A stretch of 64,000 nucleotides of DNA from Diplonema papillatum (Eukaryota; Euglenozoa; Diplonemea; Diplonemida; Diplonemidae), in contig JAPJBO010000256.1 of NCBI GenBank assembly GCA_030068145.1, positions 81,001 to 145,000 of the forward strand. The letters run 5' to 3'. Below the pieces are notes generated by a model, which ran no database searches, was not told the DNA's origin, and worked only from the letters and a program-made list of their open reading frames with translations. The position numbers were made by a program, and so were the translations under genes. This document shows, in pieces, positions 5,070-50,900 of the stretch; position 1 is the stretch's first letter; each line of letters starts with the position of its first letter.

Positions 5070-5143
5070 AGCACGCCGCAAGTTCTCTTTAGATAGCGGT
5101 GATGTCAGCACGCCGCAAGTTCTCTTTAGATAGCGGTGATGTC
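5070..5143. repeat. 37-bp tandem duplication across the AceE stop codon
   Basis: Positions 5070-5106 and 5107-5143 are identical 37-bp direct copies. The second copy contains the last codons and the TAA stop (5126-5128) of the AceE gene. The first copy therefore repeats the C-terminal coding end inside the 3' untranslated region. Confidence 0.95.
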
Positions 5144-8100
5144 TGTTCTCTTGCCCTGGATCAGACCCATCTCCTTGATGGCGTTCACGGCAACGGAAGC
5201 TTCGATGTCGCCGTTGCGAGATAACGCGGAAAGAACGCACGCGACGACTGATTCATGGTCGATTTCGAAGAAGCGCCTCAGGTTTTCCCTGGTGTCAGAC
5301 CGCCCGAAGCCATCAGTGCCGAGGATGTCGAAATAGCCAGGAACGTCAGCGCGGATAGTCTCCGGCAGCGCTTTCTGGTAGTCGGAGCACGCGATGGTGA
5401 TGTCCGGGCCACCTGCGAACGACTCAGCCACAAACGACTTCGTCTCTTCTTGGTCGGGGTTCAGACGTGACATACGGTGAGCGTTGTGCATGTCGTTGTG
5501 AAGTTCGCCGTAGCTGCAGGGGGTTTGCGATGATTCTTAATACTTTGCTTTGCACGTGCAGCAAGACTTGCTATTTTTTAGAGTTAAAGTTCGCTTGAGC
5601 GGAAAGGCCTTGCCAAGTAGGTTGGCACACAGATGGGGGGAGCCGTGTGTCAACAGGATATCTCTGTTTCTGCCGCCGTTCTTCCCCACACATTGCATGC
5701 GGCTAAAAATGAAAACAAAATGCTGCAAACCTGACGACACTCCAGACCTCAGACGACACCCCGTACTTCTCGTCCAGGATCTTTGCGGCGTCCAGAACCT
5801 GCTGCATGATCACACCAGACCCAAGCAGACGCACTTTCTTGTCGTGACTGCCAAACGTCTTGAAATGGTACATTCCCTTCTTGATCCCTGCCTCGACACG
5901 TTCTTTGTCCTGCAAGTTAAACTTAAAATGGAAACAAGGAACAGACATGAAAAGGCTACTTTGCACGTGGACAGGTTCAATGATGTAGTCACTCGCAAAA
6001 AGGTATCAGACTCTCGCCAGAGAAGATGATAGCCAAACATACCTCGGCAAGGAGAGACGGCTGCTCGATGTCCTCGTTGTAGAGCATCATGTAGTAGAAG
6101 ACGTCCTTATCTTCGCCCCACATTTCCCTGATCCCGTCACGGATAATGATGGCGACTTCGTAGCCGAAGGCCGGGTCCCAAGCCCGGCACCCAGGGTTCG
6201 TCAGCGCAATGAGCAGGGAGTGACCGTCCTGGTGCTGCAGACCCTCTCCATTGAGGGTGGTGCGCCCGGCAGTGCCACCAAGCAAGAAGCCTCTCACTCG
6301 CATGTCTGCTGCCTGCCAGATGAAATCTCCGACACGCTGGAAACCGAACATAGAGTAGTAGATGAAAAACGGAAGCGTCGGTGTACCCTGCGAGGCATAC
6401 GAAGTCCCAGCCGCAATCCACGTGCACAAAGCACCAGCCTCACTGATGCCCTCTTGCAGAAGCTGACCTTCGGGTGCTTCGGCGTAGTTAAGCATCGAGC
6501 CCGCGTCAACTGGAGTGTAGCTCTGGCCGAACGGTGCGTGGATCTTGAACTCAGGGAAGAACGACTCGAGACCGAAGGTACGCGACTCGTCGGTCAGAAT
6601 GGGCACGACACGCTTACCGAAACCGTCAACCTTCATCAGAGCTCGAAGCATACCACCCCATGCGATAGTAGTGCTCACCTTCTTCCCAGGCTTTGTGCCG
6701 GTGTAAAACTTCTCGTACAGTTCGTCTCCCGGGATTCTAATCATCTCGGAGATCTTGACCGGTGATCGCGATGGCAGGTAGCCACCAAGCTTTTCGCGGC
6801 GGCCCTTCAGGTATGTAATCTCCTCTGAGTCTTCAGAAGGGAGGCAGAACACGTTCTCGTCCTTGGCCAGGACTTGTTCGTCCGACAAATTGATGCCGAG
6901 CTCGGTTCTCAGATTCAGCATCTCTTCGTCGTTCAGCTTCTTCTTCTGATGCACAGGGTTTCTTCCAACGAACGTTGAAAGCTTGAAACCCTTCAACGTC
7001 TTCGCGAGAATCACGGTCGGCCGAGCACCTTCTTCGCCGTTCTTCTCAGCCCGTGCGAATGCGGAGTAAATCTTTTCTCTGCAGTGTCCTCCGGGGAGCA
7101 TGTAAGCATCGCGCAACTGGTCGTCGTTGAGGTGCTTGACTCTGTCCGCCAGCTCTCCGGGGAAGAGCTCCTCTCGGATCTTAGCTCCGTCGTTAAGAGC
7201 GGCCAGTCGCTGACAGTCGCCGTCGGGGTGGTTCTCCAGGTGGTCCACCAGCTTTCCATCGAAATCGTTTTCGATCAAATCGTTCCACTCTTTGCCCCAG
7301 GCCAGCTTGATGCAGTCCCAGCCAGCTCCGCGGAACAAGCCCTCGAATTCTTGGATGACCTGTGTGTGACGATGATGATGAGTAGTCGGCTACCTAAGTC
7401 TTCTTGTGCGACACGTACACACGTTTAACTACTACGGGCCCGACTTACAGCCCACCGGCTTCATTAATCTATTGGCATAGTAGTATATGCTCAACACAAT
7501 GCAATCGAAGAAAGCTGCAGGTGAAAACAAAGCTAGCGCGAAGCCAAAGGTTCTCCCTATTCCAGGACCATGAGGAAAAGCCTGAATGGTGCGTTGTTAA
7601 TCCGCAGTAGGCCGTTTGACATTGGTAGCTGCATGTAGCTGCATTCTTCCGGTCTCGCCTCAAAACAAAACTGGCGCACCTTCGAGTTCCCTCTGACAGG
7701 ACCGTCAAGACGTTGGTAGTTGCAGTTGATGATGAAGACGAGGTTGTTGAGGCGCTCACGACCCGCCACAGCAATAGCTGAGATCGTCTCGGATTCATCC
7801 ATCTCACCGTCACCGATGAACGCCCACACGCGCGACTTCGACGTGTCTGCCAAACCACGCATGTGCAGGTAGCGGTAGTAACGCGCTTGGTGCACAGCCT
7901 GCAGAGGCCCAATACCCATGGAAACAGTTGGGTTCTCCCAGAACGTGGGCATCAGCCTCGGGTGGGGGTACGACGAAAGTCCCTTACCGCCGGTTTCCTT
8001 ACGGAAGTTCATGAGCTGGTCACGGGTGAGGCGCCCTTCGAGGAATGCCCGCGAGTACGCGCCCGGCGAAGCATGGCCTTGGATGTAAATTGAATCGCCT

Positions 8101-8906
8101 TCACCACCGCCGTAGTTCTTTCCGCGGAAGAAGTGGTTCTGAAGAACCTCCCACATATCTGCCATCGACGCAAACGTACCGATATGGCCACCAAGACTTC
8201 CGTCACGATGGTTGGCATCCGACACCATCGCAACAGCATTCCAACGAATCAGGTTCGTAATGCGTTCCTCGAGCTCGCTGTTACCCGGGTAAGCCTCTTC
8301 GTTCGCACGGGCAATCGTGTTGGCAAACGGCGTGATGACAGGCTCTCGGATCGGGATGTCGAGCTGCTGTGCGTGCCTGAGAAGGTCGTGGAGAAGGTAT
8401 CTGGCCCTCGCAGGGCCATGCACCTGGACCACCGCGTCAAGTGACTCCATCCACTCACTTGTTTCAGCGATATCGAACTGCGGCAGCGAAGACTGCAGCG
8501 ATCGCATGGCTGAGGGCATCACGTTACGAATGCTTCCTCCAAGGTCAATCGAGCTCGAGTATACGGGCAGCTCCCCCTTCAGTGCGTTCATGAAAACGTC
8601 GTAGTTGACAACACCCATGCGCTCTCTGTCGAAGAAGTTGAAGATCTCCTCCATCTCCTCGTTGCTCACTTCGAAGTCCAATTCCGTCATCAGCTGCTGC
8701 ATCTGGTCGAACTCCAGCTCTCTGGTGCCGTCCGTGTCAATCTTGTCGAACCACTCCTGCGCGAATTTCAACTTCTTCCCCCTCCCGCCTCTGACCTCAT
8801 CTTGCAGACGCGACAGCGGCGCCGGAGCCCTCCGGCTCAGGAACGAGCGCTGCGCAACGAGCGCCGACTTCGCCGCCCCGGCCTTCGCTAATCGGCGGAA
8901 CATCAC
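5126..8906 (-). CDS. aceE: Mitochondrial homodimeric pyruvate dehydrogenase E1 with N-terminal EF-hands
   Basis: Four exons: 7680-8906, 6043-7359, 5731-5909 and 5126-5513. They join in frame into 1036 residues with GT-AG introns (donors GTGCGC, GTATGT, GTTTGC). The product is the thiamine-diphosphate E1 of the pyruvate dehydrogenase complex, decarboxylating pyruvate and acetylating lipoyl-E2. Residues 1-30 are Arg/Ala/Ser-rich (MMFRRLAKAG...), like a mitochondrial presequence. Residues 57-68 (DTDGTRELEFDQ) and 93-104 (DRERMGVVNYDV) form an EF-hand pair, with Gln and Val in place of the usual Glu at loop position 12. AceE homology starts near residue 150; the ThDP motif GDGEMDE with NCNYQRLDGPVRGN, the YYSMFGFQRVGD block and the C-terminal GTDGFGRSD are intact. 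Bacterial AceE is about 890 residues, so the extra length is N-terminal. Intron 3 holds a copy of the AGAGTTAAAGTTCGCTT repeat (about 5578). Identity is secure; calcium binding is inference. Confidence 0.95.
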
Positions 8907-9424
8907 TTTCCTTTCTTTTGATGGGCTGCTTCCTTCTGCGCCGTCCGCCTAAGCCTGAGTGTGCACTTCTACAATAAATATGCGCTGAAGAGTTCACGAT
9001 TTCTTGCCGGTGAAACCGTAAGGGTAGCGATGCTTGCGCAGCAGCAAAGGATAAATCAGGGGAACAGGTTTAAGCAAGGATCATCAACAGGGGTACAATG
9101 AGAAGAGCGCTATTTACGATTTGAAAAGGTTGGAAAGACGGAGGAAAGAAGGAGCTCAAGCCAACCGTAAATTCGTGGCAGTGGCAGCCTGCCCGCAGGT
9201 TTGGATTTCACGACGCACTAGCAGCGAAGCAACACGCGTTCGTCGCGTTTGGAATACCAAAGCGCAATACCAAACCCCACGACTGGGGGATGGATGCCAC
9301 TTCGTCAGGTCTGGACTCGGAATCCACTTGATCCGCTCAGATCTGCCGAATGTTGGGTTCTCGAAAGTGGTCACAGCATGTGTTGACGAATTTGCGCTGG
9401 TCCCTTCGAGCGCCGAAGCGCTGT
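8907..9424. other. Intergenic region upstream of AceE
   Basis: About 520 bp between the AceE start and the end of the next minus-strand gene. It should contain the AceE promoter and the 3' region of its neighbour. I see no TATA-like element or repeat that I can support. Confidence 0.5.
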
Positions 9425-24992: not shown

Positions 24993-26606
24993 CCAAGAAC
25001 CCCCGCTTCCAAGCCGCTGCCTCCGCCAGAGCAGCCTCTGCTATTCGCCCCCGTGCTGCTGATTGTTGGCCCTACGTGTAAGATGGTGCGACTGGGGACA
25101 CCTTACGCCAGTCCGGATAACTCTACTGTGGCCCGGCTTTTCCAGCTGCGTAAAGTGTCACACTGGTGAAATTTAGTATTTTCTTGCAGTCTCAGAAGGC
25201 CTTCCCTCTCTGAGGTTCGCCAGATGCATGCTTTCGCAGAAGTTCGTCTTCCTACGATCTAAGATTTTCACCTCTGACGTAGGAGTACGTACAACCCCGG
25301 CAGTCCCTATTGATCCCGCGCAACGAGGCCTTAGACGAAGCTCAAAAGACAACCGCTAAGAACTTCGTTTTGATTATTCCTTCTCGGGTTAAGAGACCAA
25401 CAAAAAGAGTCAAGAGAATCGATCCTTGTTATCCCGTGCTTTAACATTCGCGGCGAACGCCTGCTTTGGGCAGCAGGTACTTTTATGTAGACGACAAAAG
25501 CTGGTGTCATGCTCGGCTGGCTTCCGGCCCGCCCATATCTCTCCGAAACGCATCTAACTACGATGTCCTCCAGGTTTTAGACGGCGTGCCTGAAGGCTTT
25601 TAGCGTTCATCCCCCTCCCAAAGACGTCGGGTGGGCTCATTTCCAGATGGTTTCGTGTTGCACTGCAACTGCGCTTGAAACTCCGATTTTAAGTCTCCAG
25701 TTCCATTCGACCCAACATGGTTGACGGGTGTTGTGACGCCTGCGGCCAGCGGTGGAAGCCAGTCCACCATTGTGATGGATCCTGATGTACGCCATCTGGG
25801 TAGATGCGGTGTGCATCGGCTACTGACCCGGTCGTTCTTGTGTCTCGCCTGGACGTCAGACGTTGAAAAGGAACGCGAAACCTCCAAAGCACTTTGGTTT
25901 GTTTTTTTGACCACAAACATGCGGGAAAATGCTTTATTATTTTGACTGGTGTTTTACTAAAGACCGGTCCTGAGTCTCCGGGCGACGTGTTAGGCGAGTG
26001 TCCTCAGCGTTCGTCGTGCGAAGGTGTAAGAGTTTTCTTTCTTGTTTGAAGCAAACGCGAATCCATATTGCCACTTCCCTTCAGCAGTGTGAGGGAGCAA
26101 GGCAAGAGGGACATGTGCACGGATAATCGTTGCAAATCTGCAAGCGACTTTTGTATGTGACACAGAAATAAAAAGGGCGGTGTCGTCCAAAACTCGGAAA
26201 GGCGTTTTCGTTGAAGCTGGGCAGATCTATGGCCATTGCCACAGCAACCGAGTCGTATGGAAAACAGAAACAGTGGCTTATATATGGGTCTGGTGCTCGG
26301 ACCAAGTCCGAGCAACAAAAAAAAAAAAAGCACAGAATGCCCTGGCTGAGGGGCCCAGTAGTAATGCTACAGTACAGCAGTCACACTAGCAGTACACAAC
26401 CGGTTACTGCACCTTTGGATCATCGTTGAAGCAACGTACAGCCTCAATTTTGGAACCTGCGACTGGCCCAATAGCTTGAAAAAAATTTCCGCGCCTGCGG
26501 CGCTGGTATTTCTGGCTTGTGTATTGTTTCATGACGTGTGGCCAAGAAAGCGAAGACCGCGGCTGTCCGCCCTGCTGTTGCAGATTACTGCCAAGTGTTC
26601 TTGAAT

Positions 26607-45473: not shown

Positions 45474-47936
45474 CTACGGCTTGTTGGCGGCGAATCGGGG
45501 AATAACGTTGTTGCGGTAGTAGTGGTTGAAGTCCAGCTTGCGGACGAGGTGCGGCAGGCGGCCGTGCGGGTCGTCCGGGCTGCTGCTAATGAACTCGAGG
45601 AGCTGCGCGAGGCGTTCGTCGAACTGCTTCGAAAACCGGGCGACCATTTGGTCCGGCAAAGACTGCCGCGCGGCCTCGGAAAAGAGCTTCACGCTCAGAA
45701 ACACCTTCTCGAGCAGCTTCAGGTAAGCCTCATTCCGCCCCAGCGCAGCAGCGACGCACGACTCGAGGAACTCTTCGTGCGCCGCGGCCACGATCGACAC
45801 GGAGTGCGAACCGACCAGAACCGATTCAAACTTCTCCGCCGCTGGCGCGACGACCTCATATGTGAGGTACGTCTCGAGCGAGCACAAAAAGCTCGACATG
45901 CGGTATAGCAGAACGCACACCGCAGCGTCTGCGGCCGTGCGCCGCCCTCTACGGCAGCGATTGAGATCGAAGCGAAGCGTTTTGATTCGGAAAAGCAGGC
46001 GGAACATGAACTTGTAGCCGGTATGCGGGCCAGCTTGCAAAGCTTGCGCCGTGATCGTGCTCAGCAGCCCGGTGCGGTACTCGTCGTCGGAAGCACTGGT
46101 GAGGGCGGATGGGGCAGCGGGTTCTGCGGACTTGTGTGTGCTGGCGGTGCCGCCGGGGCTGTGCGAGCCGCTGGCGAAAATGAGGACCAAAGGCCAGGGG
46201 ATCGGGACGTGGACTTGCAGCGTGTTGGTCAGTGGCAGCTCCACCGCCAGCCCGAGCCTTCCGCTCAGGGAGCGGAACAAATGTGTCTCCGCCGTTTCGA
46301 GGGAGACCGTCGACTGCTCGAGGGGCGGCGGGCGCTTAGCGTACACGTTTCCGGCGTACGGTACTTTTGTTGCGTCGTTGCCCCTTGCTTGATTCGCACG
46401 GGGTTCGGTTGCATCTTGGTCGACCATCGCTTCATCTTGCTGCGAGTTCGTGGGCAGAGGAGCATCAACGTCCATTGGTGCTTCAGACGCGATGTCGTCG
46501 GCTTTGACTTCGAGCGTGGATGAACTGTGTGCTTGTTCAACGAGTTCCTCCCCGGAAGGAACAGGGGGTGTTCGTTGGTGAGCCGCATCCACTTCGTGTA
46601 CAGCGGATGACTGATCTGTGACGTCTATGTCTGAAGGCGAGTTATGCGGCTCAGGCTCAGGCTCAGGCTCAGACTCTGGCGCAGGCTCAGGCCGTCGACG
46701 AAAGGACTGCTTTCGGAAGTCATGGCGGGCGCTCGGGTACACGGACCAAGTCCGAGTGCCGTTGATGACGTGGTACGCTACTGCGTGGGCCTTGTGTTTC
46801 GACTTGTAGTCGGTGATGGCGTTGTCTAAAAGAGTCTGCAAGACGCCCCACGGGACTTCACGCGCAGTACGGGTCAGCGAGCAAGCGGCGGTTTCGGAGC
46901 AAGCGTGGAGGAAGTCTGATATCCACGTTGAGTCGGAGAACAGGTAAAAAGTGGTGAGCACTTGGAAGAACCCGACGGCATCCGCATCCCACCGAAGATG
47001 GTGCAAAACGCGGTCGTTCGCGGAGTGCAGGATGGGGTCGATGGCTGCGGACAGCGCGGCGGGGTCCGGCGTGCGCGGGATCTGGTCGACGGCGTGCAGC
47101 TTGTGCGACAGCCGAAGCATCAAAGCCAGCTTCCCCGCCTCCAGCAACCGGGAGGCGACCGGTTTCAAGAAGTCGGGCAACGACGGCTCGTCCCAGCCCC
47201 ACTGGGTGAACGGCTGTCGCGCATCCGGAGCTAGGGGCAGCTCTTCGTGCACGACGCCTGCCTCCACCCACCGCTGGACGAGCGCGAGGAAGGGCCCGGT
47301 GGCGTGGTGGGTGAGTGCGGCAACGAAGGGGATGCCGCCGGTGTGGCTGTGCGCGGCGCCCCGCCCGACCGCTTCGAGGCGCCTCAGCACCTTTCCGCCG
47401 GTTTCGCCGCTGCGCGCGGACGTCGCCGCCACAATCCGGGCGAGCGCCAGGATCGGCCGATACGCCGCAACCCTGCTGACCACCACCGACAACGGATTTC
47501 CCAACGGCAGCTGGTCCCATATGTCGCAGATGACCTCATGAATCCCGACGCAGATGTCGAGCAGCGCGTGACCAAGTGCGTGGTTGATCATCCCTTTTCG
47601 CAGGTCGCCAATCAGCTTCTTCCCTTCCCTCCACGCCACCGCACGATCCTCTGCAAGGGCGAGTACCGAAGAGACGTACTGTGCGTCGTCTTCAGCCACC
47701 TCCGGCGCGACTACAAACCTGAGCGTGTCCTGTCCTCCCTCGCCTTCCTCGGCGGGCTCTACCCGAGTGTACACAAAGAAGCTAGTGCTGCCCCGCAGTG
47801 CCAACAGCAGGGCCTGAGCCAAGTGCCGCTGCTGCATGCCGACTGCCCAATTGTTCCAGCTCTTCTCGTCGGCGGTAGCCTTCGGCCGCTGCCCCAGCCA
47901 TAGGTGCTCCCCGGACTCGATGCGTCCGGGGTTCAT
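45474..47936 (-). CDS. Gamma-tubulin complex component, GCP4-like
   Basis: An intronless frame of 820 residues from the ATG at 47934-47936. Gamma-tubulin complex proteins (Spc97/Spc98 fold) bind gamma-tubulin and nucleate microtubules. The N-terminal half has the family's hallmarks: LAQALLLALRGSTSFFV near the start (GCP4 begins with a similar LLLAL.G), GGIPFVAALTHHATGPFLAL and WVEAGVVHEEL. The C-terminal half has HVPIPWPLVLIF, YKFMFRLLFRIKTLRFDL, YRMSSFLCSLETYLTYEVV and AHEEFLESCVAAALG, corresponding to the gamma-tubulin-binding GRIP2 helices. Between them is an acidic, low-complexity insert (PEPAPESEPEPEPEP, from a CTCAGG hexamer array at about 46649-46693). GCP4 is preferred over GCP5 or GCP6 because of length and N-terminus. 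Part of its 3' end is duplicated downstream at 45184. Confidence 0.8.
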   Translation of the reverse strand: MNPGRIESGEHLWLGQRPKATADEKSWNNWAVGMQQRHLAQALLLALRGSTSFFVYTRVEPAEEGEGGQDTLRFVVAPEVAEDDAQYVSSVLALAEDRAVAWREGKKLIGDLRKGMINHALGHALLDICVGIHEVICDIWDQLPLGNPLSVVVSRVAAYRPILALARIVAATSARSGETGGKVLRRLEAVGRGAAHSHTGGIPFVAALTHHATGPFLALVQRWVEAGVVHEELPLAPDARQPFTQWGWDEPSLPDFLKPVASRLLEAGKLALMLRLSHKLHAVDQIPRTPDPAALSAAIDPILHSANDRVLHHLRWDADAVGFFQVLTTFYLFSDSTWISDFLHACSETAACSLTRTAREVPWGVLQTLLDNAITDYKSKHKAHAVAYHVINGTRTWSVYPSARHDFRKQSFRRRPEPAPESEPEPEPEPHNSPSDIDVTDQSSAVHEVDAAHQRTPPVPSGEELVEQAHSSSTLEVKADDIASEAPMDVDAPLPTNSQQDEAMVDQDATEPRANQARGNDATKVPYAGNVYAKRPPPLEQSTVSLETAETHLFRSLSGRLGLAVELPLTNTLQVHVPIPWPLVLIFASGSHSPGGTASTHKSAEPAAPSALTSASDDEYRTGLLSTITAQALQAGPHTGYKFMFRLLFRIKTLRFDLNRCRRGRRTAADAAVCVLLYRMSSFLCSLETYLTYEVVAPAAEKFESVLVGSHSVSIVAAAHEEFLESCVAAALGRNEAYLKLLEKVFLSVKLFSEAARQSLPDQMVARFSKQFDERLAQLLEFISSSPDDPHGRLPHLVRKLDFNHYYRNNVIPRFAANKP

Positions 47937-50900
47937 TCCCCCTCCCCCCTGCCTTCTTCAGCGGACAAACCCGCGCATCAGCTGTCTTGTGTTTTGGGAT
48001 CTATCGGATGACAGGATGACAGAAGACAAGGTTTCGCAGTTTCCCAGGATCGTGCAAAGTGAGTTGAAGTATGACCAAAGCGACCCTGAGGGTGGTAATC
48101 TCCCGCCCACATGATAAAGCCGTGCCTATCCCGTGGCACCTTTTATAAGTAGTTGTCTTCTGTGAATTAACTACTAGGCTGAGCAGAAGCTCTGAGGGCT
48201 GAGGGCTCAGGCTAAGATTGTCCCAGCTTCTCTGTGAGGCTGGACCCGTGAAGTTTGTACGCAGTGTCTCCTTCTTCCTTCCCTTGGCTTCCCAATCGTC
48301 GTATGCTTCATCATACCGAATAGCGTCCTTACTGTGTGATAAGAGGTGCAGGGTAGCTAAGAAATGCCTGAATCGAAGGCTGCGGCCCTGAAGCACTCAG
48401 CAAAAAAAGGAAAGAAAGGTGAAAACGGGTTTTTGCCTGGAGGCTTTTCGTGTTATTCTGCAGATGCTGCAGAAACAAAAAGAAAGGACACCCTCTCTCC
48501 CCCGGTTGCAGTACAGGAGACTACGGGGAGCTGGCTGACCACACCAGTTGTTCCTGCTAATTCTTCTCCTACTCGTGTGCTGAGGGGCTCGCTTACAACC
48601 GGACAGGTGGCCTTTCATACCCCTCCTCTTCCAAGTAATCGGCATCTTGCCATGATTCTCACAGGGAGACAGCGCCAAGGTCACCCAAAGTCACAACATT
48701 CTGAAGCGGCCTCCAGGCGGTGTCCGGCCCTGGGCGCTGGCGACTCTTCTTCACTACAGCTGATTTATTCACTACAAGCTGCGGTTTCGTGATCCAGGCC
48801 TTCGTGGTTTCTGACTGAGCAGGTCTTCGTGATCCAGGTTGACTTGCGCCCTGATATCCTTTTCGCTGTCGGCATGCCACTTCCTTCTCGCGTTTTGCGT
48901 CTTGAATCTACACGTGATGCATAAAGGTCAGTGGATCGATGGCACTTCCAACCAGCCGAGCAATGGCTCACAAGCCGTACCATTCCCACAGTCGTGTAAG
49001 GTAGGCACACGGTGCCTCTTCCGCGCGCTATAAGTCGCCCGCAGTCCCCTTAAGAAGTAGTGCGCGTCTCGGGTAAGCAGCAAGCCGCCGATGCCAAAAG
49101 ACACCCCCTACAACGACACGCCCACCTATTTAAGGGTCGAGATCTCGTTCGCTAACGGAATCAACCTGACAAATCACTCCACCAACCAGGAGCGGCCATG
49201 TTCAGAGCAGATCAATGTTCACTCCTAACCGCTATTTCCTCGGGCAGACAAATGCGACATCTTCGCCCTCGTGGGAATCCGGAAAGGTTTGAGCAAGACA
49301 TAGCTATCGCTTCCAATGAATAAATACGGGCAAATACAAAAATGGGCATCTCGAGTAGCCCCCATTGCTCCGCGTGAACTCTGGGATTTGGAGCTCGATA
49401 AAAGCATCGGAAACGGTGTACATCGTAGACCACTGCAATGGTGCGAGGTACTCGTAGGGCTCGATTTTCTACAGCTGTATCTGTCTCTAGAGAGCTGCCA
49501 GGTTACTACCCGGGCGTTACCGCAGAAGCTAAACCCGCACGAACAAATTTACAGAACACGGACTCCAGACTAGGCACAAAAACGAAGGGGGAGGGGGAGG
49601 GGAGACGGGTACGAAGTAGTCGCTGTGTATTCAGGCAGCGCGAACATATTCCTCTCTCTTTCTTTCCGAAGTGAAAGTTTTGGTATTCTTCTATGTCAGC
49701 GGTGTGAGACCTACTTATGAGAGCTACCCTGAAAGAACCACAGGCGTGGGGCGTGTAGAATAGGGCAGACCGGATCGTTGCAAACACCGACTTCGGGGCT
49801 GCTCGTTCTGCTCTTTTGGCTCTTTTGCGTTTCTCGGTTCCCAGTGCGATGCAATGACTACAGAATCACGCGCGTGTGTGGAAAAGTGCAGAGCGGGCGG
49901 GGTGGAACATCATGACCGACTCAAACGTTTGCGTGTCGCGGTTGACCGTTCCCCTCTTGGCGCGGAACGACCTTGTTTTTCTCGGCTAACAAGCTTGCCT
50001 GAGCTGAGCGCCTTCGGCGCGTCAAGTTGGAATCCTTAGCGAACTCCTCATATCCACTCGCCTAAAGCGAGGTTGGAGGGGTGAAGCAGAAATTGATAAA
50101 CGCAGGCCCCTTCTTGTACTCCCCACTTCGCACACATACATACACACACGCACGCACACACACGGATCCACCTGCCGCCATGGACCACAGGTGTCTTTAT
50201 TTTGGGCACATGTTGAATCCTGATGTGCCACTCGTGGCTCTCGTTGTTGACGAAGCAGAACCCGTTCCTTTTCCTTTGTTGTTTTTTTCTTTTGGATTGA
50301 AATTGCTGTTGAATGAAAGTCGGCAGGCAGAGGAGCGGAGCCGCAGAAAAACTCGGAAAGTCGGAGGAGACGAGCCTACAACAGGCGTTTCTACCCCCCG
50401 AATCCTTTGAGAAATTCCTTTCCCGGAATCTTGAAAATTGCGCGGCTCTCTCTCTCTCTCTCGATGATGATGATGATGAGTCACCACGGCGATCAAGCCA
50501 TAAAAAGGTTTGTGGGGTGCGCATACTGGAGCCAGCCTGCAAGACTGGCAGGGCGCAAGTCGACTTAAAGTCAGTGCTTAGCTGCTGCAGTCTTTTTCTG
50601 GACTTCTGAGTTGCTCATGACGGGCGACGTGGTTCGCGGCTCTCGATCTTTTCGTGTATCACCACGATGCGCAAACCAAAAAACGCTGTGCGGGAAGCAC
50701 CGCTCGATGCTTGCGGTGTCACGAGCAGTGAGAAGTAACGGCCAGCGGCCAGTTGGTCCCTCGGTTCAGTCGGCTATGCTTCGGCCTACTGCAGCCGGGA
50801 ATTAGTTGCATTAGTGTGATTGCCAGGCCTTCGACTACCCTGAGCGACGCACTACTGCAGCCTATTTTTGAGCAAACGTCTATGGACACACCTAGTCAAT

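Follow-up and report, generated by a model that had tools for sequence, protein, structure and literature searches.

The stretch of Diplonema papillatum DNA analyzed here (the window, 64,000 nucleotides) carries on its minus strand a gene of four exons, running from position 8903 to position 5126, whose 1035-residue product resembles the homodimeric-type (AceE) pyruvate dehydrogenase E1. The first exon lies in an open reading frame (8906→7557) that opens with GTG ATG, and we chose the ATG at 8903 as the start; an in-frame stop is found upstream at 8951, and the single ATG in the 300 nucleotides upstream of the start is out of frame. A presequence-like N-terminus, an EF-hand pair, and the start of the AceE core follow one another in this one frame without an intron between them. 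The introns, all GT-AG, were positioned from the reading frame and from homology.

Table 1 Features of the E1 gene and of its surroundings in the window.
Feature	Residues	Position	Strand	Remarks
Exon 1	1-408	7680..8903	-	In order: ATG, presequence-like segment, EF-hand pair, linker, first part of AceE core; splice donor GGGAACTCGAAG|GTGCGCC
Presequence-like N-terminus	1-40	8784..8903	-	Arg/Lys-rich, mitochondrial type; from composition
EF-hand pair	48-109	8577..8762	-	Pfam EF-hand_6 and EF-hand_7; PDB phmmer
EF loop 1, DTDGTRELEFDQ	56-67	8703..8738	-	Kept D1, D3, T5, E9; R6, Q12
EF loop 2, DRERMGVVNYDV	92-103	8595..8630	-	Kept D1, E3, G6; M5, V12
Linker from EF pair to AceE core	110-142	8478..8576	-	Begins GELPVYSSSID
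Start of AceE homology	142-182	8358..8480	-	Corresponds to E2-binding N-terminal region of bacterial AceE
Exon 2		6043..7359	-	Flanking GT-AG introns of 320 and 133 nt; PDH_E1_M 268 bits
Exon 3		5731..5909	-	GT-AG junctions
Exon 4		5126..5513	-	Intron 3 of 217 nt, GTTTGCAG...CCCCCTGCAG; TAA stop at end
Open frame, 1288 aa		17678-21544	-	No Pfam match at 0.001
18S rRNA fragment		25209-25472	-	74 bits; model positions 772-974
Open frame, 871 aa		30560-33175	-	Guanylate cyclase domain
Gamma-tubulin complex component		45474-47936	-	Single 820-aa open frame
18S rRNA fragment		49013-49186	-	60 bits; model positions 1297-1452

Besides E1, Pfam domains were detected in 5 of the 9 minus-strand ORFs scanned (one of them, folliculin, below the cut-off) and in none of the 11 plus-strand ORFs, and two fragments of 18S rRNA are scattered in the window (Table 1). 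The Diplonema genome has been described as 280 Mb in size, with genes clustered in one direction and pieces of rRNA, in that case 28S, scattered (PMC10161547), and the 271-Mb genome, the domain-bearing genes on a single strand, and the rRNA fragments fit this description. No member of the light-harvesting family turned up in a single genome search, which makes chromerids, one of the lineages named in the preliminary description beside dinoflagellates and Perkinsus, an unlikely source; among 14 control genomes, only the cyanobacterium was positive. Taken together, these features point to a diplonemid rather than to the lineages named there.

Identity of the E1 and its reading frame

The joined protein scored 1147.1 bits against TIGR00759, the NCBIfam aceE equivalog model (cut-off 859.9), with a match that begins at residue 141 and spans model positions 4-876 of 885. 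Residues 143-1024 align with residues 8-876 of E. coli E1 (858 bits), residue 8 of the latter falling on residue 143, and the alignment includes the ThDP motif (GDG at 364, NCN at 393) as well as the HQ and LQEG stretches. An exception model for proteins that are "not PDH" gave 1039 bits, under its cut-off of 1408. Because the aceE model and the E. coli enzyme are covered over these lengths, the predicted product is a complete homodimeric-type E1, as the preliminary description had proposed, with approximately 135 extra residues at its N-terminus. It has the full-length core, the domains, and the ThDP motif in common with bacterial AceE (TIGR00759; E. coli 1l8a and 2qta), from which it differs by these N-terminal residues, made up of the presequence-like segment and the EF-hand pair, and by its three introns. 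A search of the D. papillatum genome (271 Mb) revealed no second copy of exon 1 at E 0.001.

The first 35 residues comprise 6 R, 2 K, 1 D, and no E. We infer mitochondrial import of the protein from this composition rather than state it, because the helical moment of the first 18 residues is only modest (0.31).

Codon usage was scored after training on the core of E1. The EF segment reached 0.54 in its coding frame, and all five remaining frames were negative; no best-frame score exceeded -0.01 in 118 overlapping control windows, which were drawn from three regions poor in ORFs, one of them doubling as background for the score. The presequence scored lower than the EF segment (0.29), and the linker gave a weak 0.13 that was equaled by one reverse frame. 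This last value, together with internal Met codons at residues 68, 72, 84, 96, 105, 129, and 133, would fit a transcript that really begins downstream, e.g., at Met129 or Met133, in which case the EF-hand pair would belong to another gene. Such an artefact of the gene model is nevertheless very improbable, given the intron-free open frame leading from the EF pair into the core, the coding-like codon use of the EF segment, and the stop at 8951 with only an out-of-frame ATG in the 300 nucleotides before the start.

The EF-hand pair and its relatives

In the exon ORF, the model EF-hand_6 (PF13405) was matched with an E-value of 4.8e-9 and 35.6 bits (cut-off 25) and the pair model EF-hand_7 (PF13499) with 30.9 bits (cut-off 30). 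Residues 41-116 alone gave 41.9 and 35.5 bits, respectively, and 0 of 9 shuffles of this segment matched any EF-hand model; in the full-length protein, EF-hand_6 stays above its cut-off with 33.2 bits and EF-hand_7 falls below it with 28.4 bits. Among PDB entries, phmmer matched best a Leishmania PDCD6-like protein (whole-sequence E 3.4e-12) and centrin-2 (4.9e-10). By profile, residues 48-109 are an EF-hand pair, which may fold as two paired helix-loop-helix units. These data confirm that two EF-hand-like loops lie between the presequence and the AceE core, as noted in the preliminary description, where they were numbered 57-68 and 93-104, i.e. from the GTG one codon before the ATG used here. 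It was also right that neither loop has kept the Glu at position 12: no acidic residue stands there in E1, which has Q67 and V103. The module has the sequence signature of the EF-hand pairs of centrin and calmodulin, from which it differs in being a single pair, in having lost position 12 in both loops, and in being fused to an enzyme.

None of the bacterial matches listed extends into the EF-hand pair. Exon 1 matched 221 plasmid records, 60 of which, picked at even steps, were listed. Among these 60, 21 were AceE-like and the other 39 mostly transketolase-like, and the earliest match starts at query residue 124, past the EF pair. The first 21 matches listed cover more than half of the query with an identity of at least 47%, and 15 of them begin at residue 143 or 144. 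A scan of bacterial genomes with the whole E1 yielded two loci, matching from residues 144 and 160; at one locus the open frame starts 24 residues before the match, and at the other a long open frame extends upstream, beyond the match. The same query found no match in a viral scan. The earlier statement that bacterial AceE has no such module thus agrees with the plasmid matches listed, which start at residue 124 or later, and with both genome loci.

Relatives of the module were found in the genome of D. papillatum itself. An exon-wise search with exon 1, in which intron-split EF-hand genes may be under-ranked, gave three matches outside the gene: two loci on contig 286 (2.5e-9 and 4.7e-9) and an EF-hand locus on contig 829 (4.0e-4). 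The two contig 286 loci are small open frames of 117 and 116 aa, each preceded by an in-frame stop and resembling coding sequence in its codon use; both proteins, taken alone, score under the Pfam EF-hand cut-offs. They consist of a basic start, an EF-hand pair, and a short tail, in the same order as the N-terminus of E1, to which they are 35 and 33% identical over the alignment; unlike E1, they have no enzyme domain and have lost other loop positions. In their first loop E12 is present, but position 1 is K or A, so that D1 is lost in both. Position 12 of the second loop is Q in one protein and D in the other, and the second small protein, with D1, D3, T5, G6, and D12 but K9 in this loop, might bind calcium or magnesium there. 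A reverse search with the first small protein retrieved the second (2.4e-19), E1 (1.4e-10), and a partial self-repeat alongside (2.1e-5). The locus on contig 829 came next with 0.0038, followed by seven matches with E-values reaching 1, among which was another partial repeat. The region downstream of the first small frame (L004:1900-2260) contains partial repeats of its C-terminal coding end, which are 81% and 60% identical to it in translation.

The EF segments of E1 and of either small protein align approximately 17 standard deviations above shuffled sequences (0 of 2000 as high), a score that is not specific, as any two EF-hand pairs might beat shuffles; for this reason the link between the module and the small proteins rests on their rank in the genome. 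Outside the EF segments, 417 and 31 of 2000 shuffles scored as high as the presequence segment of E1 against the two small proteins, and 139 and 163 of 2000 as high as the linker against their C-terminal tails, so the likeness of presequence and tail is at most suggestive. Since the two contig 286 frames are the closest genome matches found, the first ~110 residues of E1 probably come from this family of small EF-hand proteins by gene fusion, and we infer that the segment passed from the small proteins to the enzyme. E1 and the small proteins differ in the ligands that they have lost, a pattern consistent with better loops in their ancestor and with an E1 copy that stopped binding calcium.

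Calcium and the partners of E1

A built-in calcium switch, as considered in the preliminary description, is unsupported by the loops, which end in Q12 and V12. In calmodulin, a site mutated between Glu and Gln at position 12 is non-functional (PMC9803350, where the residue change is worded in the opposite direction), and in centrins, changes at this position go along with low affinity or inactivity, with the reservation that prediction of calcium binding does not always agree with measurement (PMC8622359). Because the acidic residue at position 12 is lost in both loops, the EF-hand pair of E1 most likely does not switch on calcium, and the hedge that the module may bind weakly or be structural only was the better half of the first reading. 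Its further argument, that calcium works through the phosphatase and not through E1, stands for the classical PDH complex (PMC3396849), but in OGDH, the sister enzyme, the E1 of animals has its own calcium site with a DADLD motif (PMC7969005). Animal OGDH E1 is likewise a thiamine-dependent E1 with added calcium control; its site, a short acidic motif, comes from one exon of an alternative pair (PMC7969005), whereas the Diplonema enzyme carries an EF-hand pair and no match to DADLD across its 1035 residues.

Calcium uptake into the matrix is likely, given that MCU genes are present, with matches above the cut-off on two contigs of the same genome. MCU and three EF-hand proteins, one of which is a MICU1 orthologue, have been reported for Diplonema (PMC12699882).

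We also surveyed the genome for other E1 and E2 genes. For the E1-alpha/OGDH family, 8 stretches matched, spread over five regions. The loci on contigs 49 and 866 are of the branched-chain type, as judged from parts compared with the human chains: one scores 348 bits with human branched-chain E1-alpha vs. 91-92 with PDHA1, the other 166 vs. 48. Contigs 1385 and 1231 hold OGDH E1 frames (916 and 1034 bits, cut-off 764). On contig 379, an open frame of 551 residues (L027:400-2052, minus strand) carries an E1-alpha and an E1-beta part fused together. The sequence of this frame is divergent, its best PDB match being a "2-oxo acid dehydrogenase beta subunit" with 80.6 bits, and it could encode a further pyruvate E1.

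Two E2 genes were found, one of the branched-chain type and one of the oxoglutarate type, and the exon-wise search of the genome found none of the pyruvate type. The branched-chain-type E2 (contig 991, L029:319-2202, plus strand) has two lipoyl domains and an E3-binding domain; in animals, branched-chain E2 has one lipoyl domain. Its catalytic domain scores 290.7 bits with a branched-chain E2 structure, the chain of which we take to be bovine, and 175.1 bits with the next chain, while over the whole length the bacterial pyruvate E2 models of NCBIfam rank first, all of them below their cut-offs (391 vs. 722). This two-lipoyl protein might serve as a shared E2 for AceE. The oxoglutarate-type E2 has no E3-binding domain. 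This inventory agrees with the published account, according to which Diplonema has no conventional PDH and uses AceE, likely with the E2 of the branched-chain or the oxoglutarate complex (PMC12699882). The mitochondrial AceE of D. papillatum in that account, an AceE-type E1 with a borrowed E2 as here, is probably this very protein or a close relative. It is labeled "archaeal type", and the passages cited here make no mention of an EF-hand module.

Possible role of the EF-hand module

The EF-hand pair ends 33 residues upstream of the segment that matches the E2-docking region of bacterial AceE. Homodimeric E1s bind E2 through their N-terminal region (PMC8146983), and a title in the reference list of the same paper gives 1-45 as the E2-binding range of E. 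coli E1. On the basis of this position, and because the only E2s found are of the branched-chain and oxoglutarate types, we slightly favor a reading in which the degenerate EF-hand pair would be a protein-protein docking module placed ahead of the E2-docking N-terminus, both role and partner being proposed by analogy with work on E. coli and human proteins. A bacterial-type E1 would have gained its front segment by fusion with a small EF-hand gene of the same genome; the pair would have kept the signature of the EF-hand family, lost its position-12 acids, and ceased to act as a calcium switch; and the module may now help to position E1 on a borrowed E2 core or close to a partner in the matrix.

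Calcium gating, in which the pair would bind calcium through loop 1, weakly or with magnesium, and couple matrix calcium to pyruvate oxidation, is less likely than docking and, in our estimate, improbable. It would draw on the D1, D3, T5, and E9 retained in loop 1, on the MCU genes found here and the MCU and MICU1 orthologue reported for Diplonema (PMC12699882), on the precedent of the calcium site in animal OGDH E1 (PMC7969005), and on the low-affinity centrin sites described without Glu12 (PMC8622359). However, Q12 of loop 1 corresponds to the substitution by which a calmodulin site is disabled (PMC9803350), M5 and V12 stand in loop 2, and the DADLD motif of the OGDH precedent is missing from E1. 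The ongoing loss of loop ligands would suit a passive carry-over, in which a bacterial E1 gene landed downstream of the opening portion of a small EF-hand gene and so acquired a targeting signal, the EF pair coming along with no function beyond perhaps stability. A basic N-terminal segment precedes the EF pair in the small proteins just as it does in E1, and carry-over would therefore explain why an EF-hand module exists at this place at all. Nevertheless, the EF-hand signature is well preserved, unlike the calcium ligands, a contrast that suggests selection on the fold, and the N-terminal segments of E1 and the small proteins are weakly alike by the shuffle counts given above, so we consider this explanation, taken as a whole, unlikely as well.

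If the pair does act in docking, a bolder and quite tentative picture, with a small chance of being correct, would be that a mitochondrion without its own PDH E1 and E2 rebuilt the complex from a bacterial E1 and a native, degenerate EF adaptor, by which E1 plugs into the branched-chain or oxoglutarate core. The free EF-hand proteins would then be adaptors as well, competing with that of E1 or accompanying it, and calcium control could enter in trans through one of them; the candidate is the small protein with D1, D3, T5, and D12 in its second loop, though it has K9.

The presence of AceE in diplonemid mitochondria is already known (PMC12699882). Neither an EF-hand on AceE nor its likely donor family is mentioned in the passages of PMC12699882 cited here, and EF-hands are absent from the main text, as cited here, of PMC8611851, PMC7052976, and PMC10161547. 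For diplonemids, the question is how an E1 of bacterial type can operate in mitochondria that lack their own E2, and in print the pairing of their AceE with the branched-chain or oxoglutarate E2 is given only as "likely" (PMC12699882). With an extra domain beside the E2-docking end of E1, this pairing becomes directly testable. If true, an EF-fused E1 would be an unusual solution, in assembly or regulation, for the entry of pyruvate into the TCA cycle.
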